This document shows, in pieces, positions 32,999 through 35,489 of a stretch of DNA of 64,000 nt. Origin of the DNA: Pseudomonas sp. Tri1. GTDB lineage: Bacteria; Pseudomonadota; Gammaproteobacteria; Pseudomonadales; Pseudomonadaceae. The DNA lies in NCBI RefSeq assembly GCF_017968885.1, contig NZ_CP072913.1:1224001-1288000 (forward strand), written 5' to 3'. The notes beneath the pieces are model-generated. The model was not told the origin of the DNA. It did not search any database and saw only the letters and a list, made by a program, of their open reading frames with translations. Positions within the stretch are counted from its first letter, which is position 1. Every line of letters begins with the position of its first letter. The position numbers and the translations under genes are program-made.

Positions 32999-33324
32999 GC
33001 GAAGAACGTAACGCCATCCCCCTGATCATCACCGGTATCTGCAGCATCCTCGGCACCGTCGGGGTGCTCTGGTACTACGGTTACCTGCACTTCGCTAAAC
33101 CCGAGGACGCCTTGCTGCTCAACCAATTCACCATGCTCAAGACCGTGCCGGGCGAAGACTACAAAGTCGCCCTGGAACCGGCGCCCCAGGTGGCCCAGTG
33201 CATCGACGGTGTACTGGTGCTGTTCGATACCGAACAGAAAGGCCTGACCGGCGTGCTGATCAACGAGAAGAAGCGCGCGGTGCGTTGCATGGGCCAGGAA
33301 ACGCCACAGAAGCTCCAGCCGTAA
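32995..33324 (+). CDS. Small membrane-anchored protein of unknown function
   Basis: 109 residues. One N-terminal transmembrane segment (IPLIITGICSILGTVGVLWYY, about 8-28), then a soluble domain with two cysteines (QVAQCIDGVLVLFDTEQKGL and AVRCMGQ) that could form a disulphide in the periplasm. Translationally coupled to the alpha/beta-hydrolase lipoprotein gene, so the two products may work together at the envelope. I do not recognise the family. Confidence 0.78.
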   Translation: MSEERNAIPLIITGICSILGTVGVLWYYGYLHFAKPEDALLLNQFTMLKTVPGEDYKVALEPAPQVAQCIDGVLVLFDTEQKGLTGVLINEKKRAVRCMGQETPQKLQP

Positions 33325-33363
33325 CCAAATCCCAAGGACGCCACCATTCCCTTGTGGGAGATT

Positions 33364-34326
33364 CTATGTTGCAGGGGAACCCTGCAACCGTGAATTTGGT
33401 TGGTATTCGCTCTGATTTTTCATCAGGGCGAATGCTACCCGACACAACTTGCGGGCGAGGATAACCAAGGCCTGAGTTCTGGCCAGGCCTCGTGCCAAGA
33501 AGGCCTCATAGTAAGGTTTCCAGGCAGGAGACCGACAGGCCGCCATCGCGGCGTTGTGCGCCAGGCGTCGTAGCTCCCCGTCCCCTTTTTTGCTCAAGTG
33601 ACGAGGACTGTGCTTCTTCCCTGAGTCTTTTGGACGCAAATCCATCCCCAAGAAAGCAATGAATGCATCGCCACTGACAAAGTGACCGCGCATGAATGCG
33701 GTCGCCAAGCCAATGGCCGTCAGTTCACCAATCCCTTCAATGGCTTTGCAGCGGTTGATGTTTTCAGTGATCCCTACCGCTTGGCTGGCCTCACGCATTA
33801 GCTTCTGAATGGCCTGATCGGACTCTTTGAAGACCTCCAACTGCCGGGCCAAGATGTCCTTTAGGCACGGTTCGTTCGAAAAACTCAGCACGATACTGAC
33901 GCGGGCCTTGATGAGTGCCGCACGTTTTCTAAGCAGGTTTTTTAACACTTTGTAGGCTTCTGGAGGTGGGCTCCAGATACGCAGCCTTGCTTGCTCGTTC
34001 GTTAGATAACGAGCCAGCAAACGCGCATCACAAGGATCAGTTTTAGCCCGCAGCCCAATACTTTCACGGTAATGGGCCACCCGATAAGGATCCACAACGT
34101 AAACATGAAACCCCATTCCATGGGCCAGCTCAGCTGTGTCCAGGTGATAAAAACTGGTGGCTTCCAGCGCAATCGAGCTTTGGGCTGGTAGCGTTTTGAG
34201 CCACCGGCCAAGAGCTTCTCGATTGTTGGCGATGGCTTGAGTGATTTTCAGGTCTTCGCGGTAAACGACGATTTCGGCCTTCGCTACATCGATACCAATA
34301 ACCGTTGGTGAGTTAAGGATTGTCAT
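33364..34326 (-). CDS. IS110-family DEDD transposase/recombinase
   Basis: 320 residues, apparently intact. The N-terminal RuvC-like domain carries the DEDD residues Asp13 (GIDVAK), Glu55 (ALEATSFYH), Asp97 and Asp100 (TDPCDARLLARYL). The C-terminal Tnp domain has IEGIGELTAIGLAT and GMDLRPKDSGKK, where Ser235 is the likely nucleophilic serine. The ATG at 34324-34326 is preceded by GAGGA. IS110 recombinases move the element via a circular intermediate guided by an element-encoded bridge RNA. Confidence 0.95.
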   Translation of the reverse strand: MTILNSPTVIGIDVAKAEIVVYREDLKITQAIANNREALGRWLKTLPAQSSIALEATSFYHLDTAELAHGMGFHVYVVDPYRVAHYRESIGLRAKTDPCDARLLARYLTNEQARLRIWSPPPEAYKVLKNLLRKRAALIKARVSIVLSFSNEPCLKDILARQLEVFKESDQAIQKLMREASQAVGITENINRCKAIEGIGELTAIGLATAFMRGHFVSGDAFIAFLGMDLRPKDSGKKHSPRHLSKKGDGELRRLAHNAAMAACRSPAWKPYYEAFLARGLARTQALVILARKLCRVAFALMKNQSEYQPNSRLQGSPAT

Positions 34327-34339
34327 GACGAATCCTCGG

Positions 34340-34529
34340 AGCTAGGGTTTAGGTGCTTGTCGGGGTCTACCTTTGCGCTGGCTTGCCTCTATCGTCGGTT
34401 TTACCGATGAATTCCTTATCGGCGCTTTAGGTAGAAAGGGCGGAACGAGAAGTCTCCCACGGTCCGTACTGGCTAGAGTCGGAATCGAGCTTTTAGTCCC
34501 GCCCACCCCTTCAAGTCTAAACATACAAG
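34340..34529 (-). ncRNA. Candidate IS110 bridge RNA in the long non-coding end
   Basis: Read on the minus strand this region folds by eye into two stem/internal-loop units. Unit 1: outer stem CCGCCC (34499-34504) with GGGCGG (34438-34443); inner stem TCCG (34463-34466) with CGGA (34480-34483). The internal loop carries AAGCTCG (complement of 34486-34492) on the 5' side and GTGGGAG (complement of 34454-34460) on the 3' side, identical or complementary to the two halves of the REP target on either side of the core CT. Unit 2: GGTAG (34430-34434) with CTACC (34367-34371), plus GCGC (34422-34425) with GCGC (34375-34378). This matches the target-loop/donor-loop plan of IS110 bridge RNAs. Expression and exact ends are unproven. 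Confidence 0.75.
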
Positions 34530-34643
34530 CGAGCTTGCTCGCGATAGCGGTGGATCAGTCAGCGCCGATGTCGAGTGACCTGCCGCTATCGCGAGCAAGC
34601 TCGCTCCCACAGGGCATGTGTACAGCCCACCTTGTGCAGGCAT

Positions 34644-34680
34644 GAAAAAGCCCCGCCCGATTAACTCAGGCGGGGCTTTT
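34644..34680 (-). terminator. Intrinsic terminator downstream of the OmpA-family lipoprotein gene
   Basis: AAAAAGCCCCGCC, a loop, GGCGGGGCTTTT: symmetric A-run/stem/T-run just past the leftward gene's stop at 34698. Confidence 0.9.
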
Positions 34681-34697
34681 CAGTTGCAGTCAGCGAG

Positions 34698-35489
34698 TCA
34701 GTTGGCGCTCATGGTCGAACGCGGGGCCACTGGCTGGTTGTCGTTGGAGATGGTCACTTCCACCCGACGGTTCATGGCACGGCCCGAGACGCTAGTGTTG
34801 TCGGCCACCGGAAATTCCTTGCCGTAACCCTGGGTCACGATGCGCGCCGGATCGACGCCCATTTTCATCAGCGCGAGTTGCACGGAGCCGGCACGACGCT
34901 CGGACAGCGACTGGTTGTAGGAATCCGAACCGGTGCTGTCGGTGTAGCCTTCGATGATCACCTTGCGGTCCGGGTTTTCCTGGAGGAACTGCGCCAGTTT
35001 GCTCACGTTCGTCATACCGCTGGCGCGCAGGTCGGATTTGTTGGTGGCGAACAGCACGTCGCCGAAGGTCACCAGGGTGCCGCGTTCGGTCTGCTTGGCG
35101 TTCAGGCTGTCCTGCAATTGCTTGATCTGCGCATTACGCGCGTCGAGCAAGGCGCGGGCACGTTCGTCACCGGCGTTTTTCAGCTCGGCTTCGGCGTTGC
35201 GCAGGGCAATGGTCTGCTTGGCCACTTCGACGCGTTGGTTGGTCAGGTAGGCCAACTGGTCGACCTTGGCTTCGTCTTCCTTGTCCATATAGGCCTTGTC
35301 AGCCTTGGCCAGGAAGTCGGCGGCGTCCTTGGTTTCCAGTGCAGCTACTTTCGTCGCCGCCGGGTCAGCCTGCAGACCGTTGTAGTTGGTGCGAGCCTGT
35401 TCCAGGTTCGCGTTCGGGTCGTGGGAGCAAGCGGCCAGGGCTACGCAGGCAGCGAGCAGGGCGGGCATCATCAAGTGTTTGTGCATCAT
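34698..35489 (-). CDS. OmpA-family lipoprotein with DUF4398 N-terminal region (LptF-like)
   Basis: 263 residues from the first of two adjacent ATGs (35487-35489), preceded by AGGA. Lipoprotein signal ending LAAC (Cys21). A helical DUF4398-like region (about 30-130, Ala/Glu/Lys-rich) leads to a C-terminal OmpA peptidoglycan-binding domain (TFGDVLFATNKSDLRASGMT; the IIEGYTDSTGSDSYNQSLSE core with the DAP-binding Asp; ERRA; RAMNRRVEV). It resembles P. aeruginosa LptF, an outer-membrane OmpA-like lipoprotein linked to stress survival, not to be confused with the LPS-transport LptF. Follows a DUF4398 lipoprotein gene by 48 bp. Confidence 0.9.
   Translation of the reverse strand: MMHKHLMMPALLAACVALAACSHDPNANLEQARTNYNGLQADPAATKVAALETKDAADFLAKADKAYMDKEDEAKVDQLAYLTNQRVEVAKQTIALRNAEAELKNAGDERARALLDARNAQIKQLQDSLNAKQTERGTLVTFGDVLFATNKSDLRASGMTNVSKLAQFLQENPDRKVIIEGYTDSTGSDSYNQSLSERRAGSVQLALMKMGVDPARIVTQGYGKEFPVADNTSVSGRAMNRRVEVTISNDNQPVAPRSTMSAN

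Follow-up and report, generated by a model that had tools for sequence, protein, structure and literature searches.

IS621 of E. coli, an element of the IS110 group, targets a REP sequence through an RNA encoded in its left end, in which a target loop is followed by a donor loop (PMC11208160, PMC11208158). As laid out in those reports, each loop consists of a stem, a left guide, a hairpin and a right guide, the two guides pair with opposite strands around a CT core, and the first handshake base adjoins each right guide. The right guide of IS621 spans 4 nt, and its left guide pairs over the core; longer right guides are mentioned for some orthologues (PMC11208160), and the thousands of IS110 elements analysed in that study may include the group described here.

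Pseudomonas carries related systems. ISPpu9 and ISPpu10 of P. putida belong to the IS110 family, and 7/7 copies of each are reported within REPs, at one position, with 2-bp direct repeats that read AG for ISPpu9 (PMC1525189, PMC8450116). The 2021 description of the ISPpu9 small RNAs treats them as regulators of the transposase and does not present them as guides (PMC8450116). In the same account most ISPpu9 copies have an extra downstream sRNA unit, Ssr9, with a copy of each element end on its borders, and Ssr9 also occurs as orphans at sites apparently unrelated to REPs. We suggest that such units and orphans might be mobile second bridge RNA units. ISPa11 of P. aeruginosa, an IS1111-group element, selects a Pseudomonas REP with a seekRNA encoded downstream of the transposase (PMC11187229).

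Here we describe an autonomous IS110-group element in a 64,000-nt window of a Pseudomonas genome (positions 1,224,001–1,288,000 of the single 6.7 Mb contig), whose left non-coding end very probably encodes a REP-reading bridge RNA serving IS621-type, RNA-guided recombination. With IS621 it shares a REP as target, recombinase families and the predicted order of a target loop followed by a donor loop, the latter provisional, each with the same internal arrangement, guides on opposite strands around CT and a first handshake base adjoining the right guide. It differs in targeting another REP sequence, in its 7-nt rather than 4-nt right guide, in the core-facing letters of the left guide (most families have AT and some CA or CT, whereas the IS621 left guide pairs over the core) and in a possible terminal helix joining the 5′ and 3′ ends of the RNA. 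There is no room for a 5′ stem-loop, the outer stem starting at about nt 21–26 of the element, and in the fold of the window element the target loop is not preceded by a separate hairpin such as that of IS621. A 5′ stem-loop belongs to the IS621-type layout and is not general to bridge RNAs.

Going by their descriptions rather than their sequences, ISPpu9 and ISPpu10 probably belong to the same wider group as the window element, which has no room for a downstream sRNA unit like that of ISPpu9. The likeness to ISPa11 lies in RNA-guided choice of a REP; the difference lies in group and in the position of the RNA. No database name was found for the element, and titles and abstract openings in the open-licence literature yielded nothing on the guides of this group or on guides tracking REPs within Pseudomonas.

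A REP-splitting element and its recombinase

The element is intact, and its insertion point is the CT core of a REP (Table 1). The host genome holds nine full copies, each of 1171 bp, in two alleles with 3 differing positions; all begin with CTTGTATG and finish with CATAGAATCT, and 9/9 split the REP at the identical position and in the same orientation. Their targets read AAGCTCG-CT...CT-CCCAC in eight cases, with AGGCTCG as the left half in the ninth, and the perfect 14-mer target occurs at 929 sites in the host genome, against 0 for the same 14-mer read backwards. Because the nine copies split REPs identically and 929 such 14-mers are present, the element is multi-copy and REP-specific, and the empty target proposed by the first-pass annotation, AAGCTCG-CT-CCCAC on the transposase strand, is exactly what the joined flanks read. 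The native target of the window element is AAGCTCGCTCCCAC; the contrasting target of relatives in one other genome (G094) is AAGTTCGCTCCTAC. Cores included, 203 nt of non-coding sequence lie upstream of the transposase, matching an earlier estimate of about 200 nt for this 5′ end, and 5 nt lie downstream. A specific target, a single orientation and a short core at both ends, as in the IS110 group, were found in 9/9 host copies and in the relatives, with G186 as the one exception.

The DEDD RuvC-like and Transposase_20 domains of the recombinase both score above cut-off, and the protein reaches 177 bits (cut-off 140) with the NCBIfam model NF033542, ‘IS110 family RNA-guided transposase’. It aligns over residues 9–306 with the ISCro4 recombinase (9t56, E 2.4e-22) and over residues 10–306 with that of IS621 (8wt6, E 8.9e-21), both of known structure; at 77.6 bits, it is only a remote relative of the latter. 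The active-site residues reported for IS621, D11, E60, D102, D105 and S241 (PMC11208158; the 8wt6 chain numbering runs 2 ahead), nevertheless align with identical D, E, D, D and S residues. All 48 named loci matched by the recombinase, in a query reaching close relatives only, are from Pseudomonas. Its matches in plasmids and phages are all below 60% identity, and a near-identity search of 72,556 plasmids for the element gave no match.

Several variant arrangements accompany the full copies. Left-end stubs, one of 29 and one of 31 bases, lie at host positions 4580986–4581014 (L212, minus strand) and 4926397–4926427 (L213, plus strand); they correspond to the first 29 and 32 left-end letters, still have the REP half attached and both break near one point. 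Since no right end is present within the stretch fetched, we rejected the idea that they are mini-elements and take them as remnants, possibly left by deletion. Longer elements occur in two genomes, at 1373 bp in G080 (L145–L148, L278, L279) and 1322 bp in G009 (L200), and a motif search of two of them (L145 and L200) found no second left end. A near-tandem pair in G066 (L136–L137, G066:C45:124425-126703) is spaced by about 1350 bp, with a REP target at each member. Apparent internally deleted elements in G046 were discarded, the gaps being runs of N in the assembly. The host also encodes a second IS110-family transposase type of 338 aa (L022, host 865900–872500, and L023); a second, truncated copy lies some 2 kb from it, and there is a decayed match at 4610069. 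Just within the right end of the window element, in the last codons of the recombinase, lies a hairpin, GTTGCAGGG/CCCTGCAAC (window 33368–33388), which folds strongly in some families and is weak or absent in others.

Table 1. Features of the element and its predicted RNA, in window coordinates and in order along the transposase strand.
Feature	Position	Strand	Basis
Split REP target, left half AAGCTCG	34530..34536	-	flanks read in host copies
Complete IS110-group element, 1171 bp with the CT core of both ends counted	33359..34529	-	ends common to nine full host copies
Left end with core: CT, then right donor half TGTATG	34522..34529	-	CTTGTATG in 106/106 copies; motif also used to locate copies
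Predicted bridge RNA body	34356..34515	-	29 left ends aligned, RNAalifold, half-swap tests; ends predicted only
Possible terminal helix P0, 5′ strand CTTGAAGGGG	34506..34515	-	fold, RNAalifold, half-swap test
Target-loop outer stem, 5′ strand GGGCGGGAC	34496..34504	-	fold, RNAalifold, half-swap test
Left target guide AAGCTCG	34486..34492	-	equals left target; co-varies with relatives’ targets
Left-guide nucleotides facing core, AT	34484..34485	-	CA or CT in some relatives
Target-loop inner stem, 5′ strand TCCGACT	34477..34483	-	compensatory change UCCG/CGGA vs UCUG/CAGA
Target-loop inner stem, 3′ strand AGTACGGA	34463..34470	-	alignment, RNAalifold, half-swap test
Right target guide GTGGGAG	34454..34460	-	exact complement of CT core and right target in 101/107 copies
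Predicted target-loop handshake nucleotides AC	34452..34453	-	first A faces donor T, 106/106, invariant
Target-loop outer stem, 3′ strand GTTCCGCCC	34438..34446	-	fold, RNAalifold, half-swap test
Donor-loop stem, 5′ strand CTACCT	34429..34434	-	fold, half-swap test
Donor-loop inner stem, 5′ strand GCGC	34422..34425	-	fold; invariant among relatives
Candidate left donor guide GGAAT, which would read donor end ATAGAAT; RGAAT in relatives	34411..34415	-	complementarity and IS621-like position
Candidate right donor guide ATAGAGGCAAG; CAAG complements core-proximal CTTG	34382..34392	-	AYAGnnnCAAG in 106/106; motif used as locator
Predicted donor-loop handshake nucleotides CC	34380..34381	-	first base pairs target base 7 in 103/106
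Donor-loop inner stem, 3′ strand GCGC	34375..34378	-	fold; invariant among relatives
Donor-loop stem, 3′ strand AGGTAG	34367..34372	-	fold, half-swap test
Possible terminal helix P0, 3′ strand CCCCGACAAG	34356..34365	-	fold, RNAalifold, half-swap test
DEDD recombinase (transposase), 320 aa	33364..34326	-	PF01548 and PF02371 above cut-off
Right end: left donor half ATAGAAT, then CT core	33359..33367	-	identical in 106/106 copies; CATAGAATCT used to locate copies
Split REP target, right half CCCAC	33354..33358	-	flanks read in host copies

Predicted fold of the left end and placement of the guides

Recombinase relatives are present in 62/298 genomes, and we examined copies from 40 of these, chosen among the matches listed; the 22 genomes outside the sample are the most remote or fragmentary and the unlisted ones. 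A first set took up to four copies per genome and nine from the host, giving 109 copies (100 + 9), from which one without a left end (L181) and one with a mis-located left end (L195) were removed to leave 107. A further copy whose left end has no donor arm (L201) was left out of the half-swap test and of the donor and handshake counts, these counts covering 106 copies.

As a single sequence, the 203-nt left end of the window element folds at -64.7 kcal/mol against a shuffle mean of -54.3 kcal/mol (z -2.4), and 4/200 shuffles fold as well. Since this advantage is only moderate, the structure rests on comparative evidence. RNAalifold applied to 29 aligned left ends gave 34 pairs, 5 of them changed on both sides. 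The inner stem reads UCCG/CGGA in 3 of these sequences and UCUG/CAGA in 26, and the outer stem exchanges G-C for A-U with 14 sequences of each kind and 1 unpaired. The MAFFT alignment of the G-rich outer stem is imperfect, and we therefore also paired helix halves within and between families, using 34 representatives, several of them near-identical, so that relatedness is still in the statistic. For the outer, inner, donor and terminal helices alike, the mean pairing of a sequence’s own halves lay above all 20,000 random re-pairings. The terminal helix P0 appears the least certain of the four, because seven of its pairs are invariant and the variable ones are mixed among 18 distinct sequences.

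The two stems on which the first-pass annotation had built its model, an outer CCGCCC/GGGCGG (34499–34504 with 34438–34443) and an inner TCCG/CGGA (34463–34466 with 34480–34483), had been read correctly and both show changes on the two sides, but they extend further than noted, the outer one to GGGCGGGAC/GTTCCGCCC and the inner one by ACU/AGU past UCCG/CGGA, with one A bulged. A covariance model of the RNA finds matches in 40/40 genomes, all of them picked for their recombinase and 29 being model sources. An Rfam scan of positions 33200–34800 returned three matches, none at the gathering score and none accepted, and a scan of 33300–34700 for sigma-70-like promoters gave no match.

Both target guides had also been recognised on the sides where we find them: AAGCTCG, the complement of CGAGCTT at 34486–34492, on the 5′ side of the loop, and GTGGGAG, the complement of CTCCCAC at 34454–34460, on the 3′ side. 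AAGCUCG, within a foldable target loop, is identical to the left target half, and GUGGGAG is complementary to the CT core together with the right half. The proposal that two guides surround the CT core as in IS621 holds for the right guide, which spans the core, and only partly for the left guide, which, unlike that of IS621, would pair incompletely with the core because its facing letters are AT and not CT. When the 203-nt end was dinucleotide-shuffled 100,000 times, the left 7-mer arose by chance in 2660 shuffles and the right one in 895; both arose in 29, and in the correct order in 12, counted whether or not a single internal loop held them on opposite sides.

The donor loop is placed provisionally. 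Its predicted order of stem, RGAAU, hairpin, AYAGnnnCAAG and stem mirrors the order given for IS621 (PMC11208158). The donor ends ATAGAAT-CT-TGTATG are invariant among copies, which were located by those motifs, and the candidate donor guides are proposed from their complementarity to these ends. Another CAAG further downstream (34356–34359) was dropped as right donor guide, the conserved CAAG of the donor loop fitting the IS621 topology better; it is assigned to the possible terminal helix instead. Across the 106 copies, the first handshake base of the donor loop faces target base 7 as 98 C-G, 4 G-C and 1 U-G pairs. The G-C cases are those of G080, where the target base has co-changed (C-G to G-C), and the three failures all come from G139. 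Pairing of the second handshake base is possible in 38/106 copies for the target loop, the window element not among them, and in 1/106 for the donor loop. As provisionally placed, the first handshake bases would agree with the pairing reported for IS621.

Co-change of guides and targets among relatives

To score guides against targets, we placed the left guide by geometry, as the seven-letter stretch that two letters separate from the inner stem, which is the spacing in the window element, and not by matching. In 107 copies from 33 genomes, left guides agreed with their own targets at 6.10/7 letters, compared with 5.05 for permuted guides (p 5e-5; best of 20,000 permutations, 5.61). Collapsing the set to 14 distinct guides gave 5.51 vs 4.13 (p 5e-5). 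A later set of 40 regions, 2 of them without a left end, supplied 38 copies from 20 genomes, seven of these new, with the right target readable in 30/38; its agreement was 6.17 vs 4.80 (p 5e-5). Full 7/7 matches were found in 55 of the first 107 copies and at least 6 matching letters in 91, rising to 78 and 126 for all 145 copies. The guide of G128 is shifted by one letter, and it was scored unshifted (hence badly) in the permutation test and shifted in the REP-pool and tree tests; that of G005 has the same shift and was scored unshifted in the later-set test. These figures include several copies from the same genome as well as related elements, which are only partly independent of one another.

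Individual genomes show how guide and target change together. The guide AAGCCAG sits at AAGCCAG in 3/4 copies of G296, AGCCGCC at AGCCGCC in 4/4 copies of G080, and AGGCTCG at AGGCTCG in 12/13 first-set copies (G062, G111, G274, G010, G124), while CAATTCG in G018 is found at AAATTCG or CGATTCG. The later set added AAGCCGG at AAGCCGG (1 copy) and AAGCTTG at AAGCTTG (2/3 copies). On the right side, the guide is an exact complement in 101/107 copies, 97 of the common form and 4 from G094; because it hardly varies, G094 supplies most of the right-side information. In 4/4 copies of that genome, the left guide TAGTTCG and the right guide GTAGGAG fit the target AAGTTCG-CTCCTAC, letter -7 excepted, and the same target was seen again in three later copies.

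Some copies run contrary to this pattern. An AGGCTCG guide sits at AAGCTCG in G205 (2/2), G290 (3/3), G267 (1/1) and one later copy of five from G111, which would mean a G-U pair at most and appears tolerable. In G290 (L190–L193) there are two left guides, AGGCTCG in three copies and AAGCTCG in one, and every target is AAGCTCG. The guide of G009 disregards the commonest tested REP of its host (AAGCCAG, 1423 sites), the left flank of G186 is not REP-like, and the right guide of G080 has one mismatch in each of four scored copies. Letter by letter (G128, G005 and G091, 6/145 copies, set aside), mismatches and G-U pairs cluster at left-guide letters -7 to -5 and are fewer at -4 to -1, with letter -7 mismatched in 20/139 copies.

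The best recombinase tree of 33 element rows, some of whose branches are long or weak, requires no fewer than 17 changes of the left guide. When phylogenetically independent pairs are compared, targets follow guides at letters -6, -5, -3, -2 and -1 and almost never go the opposite way. At letter -7, co-change is absent from all 3 such pairs; for any single letter, the pairs are too few for significance.

One could suppose instead that the recombinase protein alone recognises the REP, the left end being merely REP-like or regulatory, for instance a leader for transposase translation. ISPpu9 lends this some weight, as an IS110-family element inserting in REPs for which a 244-nt tnp leader, an antisense RNA that lies across this leader and raises tnp expression, and a downstream sense RNA are described (PMC8450116). 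Recognition by protein alone, however, predicts neither the co-change of guides with targets, nor the choice of matching REP variants reported below, nor the joint alteration of left and right guide in G094, and we regard it as very improbable. The left end may have a regulatory role beside guiding.

REP choice within genomes and its meaning

REP variants were counted in the 33 first-set genomes, with pools comprising six variants only. G080 is the sole genome with the AGCCGCC form (111 sites), and G094 the sole one in which AAGTTCG-CTCCTAC is common (124 sites, at most 2 in any other). For 86 copies, the remaining 21/107 having targets outside the counted variants or pools of fewer than two, guides matched 557 letters of the occupied site against 525.4 expected from the host’s own pool, a value reached in 0/20,000 simulations; with G-U counted as a match, the figures were 571 vs 558.5 (p 3e-4). 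The best-matching variant was occupied by 69/86 copies, with 48.2 expected.

These pools bear on the idea that guide-target agreement is inherited with the host, elements simply remaining in genomes of one REP dialect with the guide idle in site choice. Guides are indeed identical to the commonest tested REP more often than chance would give, in 13/30 genomes against 5.2 expected (p 2.5e-4). The within-genome test controls for such inheritance, though, and still finds the excess at best-matching variants. It persists in the 44 copies whose guide differs from the commonest tested REP (265 vs 245 letters, p 5e-5), weakly when G-U is allowed (p 0.036). In G125, where the pool is 72% AGGCTCG and 10% AAGCTCG, elements with an AAGCTCG guide occupy the minority AAGCTCG in 3/4 copies and then in 3/3 later ones. 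An idle guide in inherited surroundings thus strikes us as extremely improbable.

We therefore return to RNA-guided choice of the REP, the reading first suggested for the window sequence. It is well supported by guide-target co-change, site choice within REP pools and co-varying helices, and other copies behave as it would predict: 8/9 in the host sit at AAGCTCG-CT-CCCAC, and where relatives have other guides, the REPs they occupy are in most cases altered to match. By analogy with IS621, the left end would be transcribed and its bridge RNA bound by the recombinase. The target loop would read the REP, its left guide pairing with the bottom strand of AAGCTCG and its right guide with the top strand of CTCCCAC. 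The donor loop would read the joined ends of an excised circle, ATAGAAT-CT-TGTATG, before the DEDD/serine recombinase exchanged strands at the common CT.

We lean, if only slightly, towards the broader proposal that one REP-targeting bridge-RNA lineage of Pseudomonas has been naturally reprogrammed many times, tending toward the REP ‘dialect’ of its host, and that both guides, or a guide and a handshake base, can co-change. Judged from sequence comparison, the element would join the known IS110 bridge-RNA systems, and the modestly new part would be this tendency of guides to follow host dialects.

With this group the bridge-RNA recombinases gain a well-resolved branch. Most of its elements are multi-copy, and their genomes often hold hundreds of sites that match the guide (the host has 929). 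Its added value is a strong natural guide-target record within one genus, in which the mismatches and the incomplete pairing of left guide and core suggest testable rules of specificity. The evolutionary question of whether mobile RNA guides track host repeat families is made testable as well, and, if the proposal is true, these elements would amount to a natural series, within one genus, of guides that have been reprogrammed and track the repeats of their hosts.
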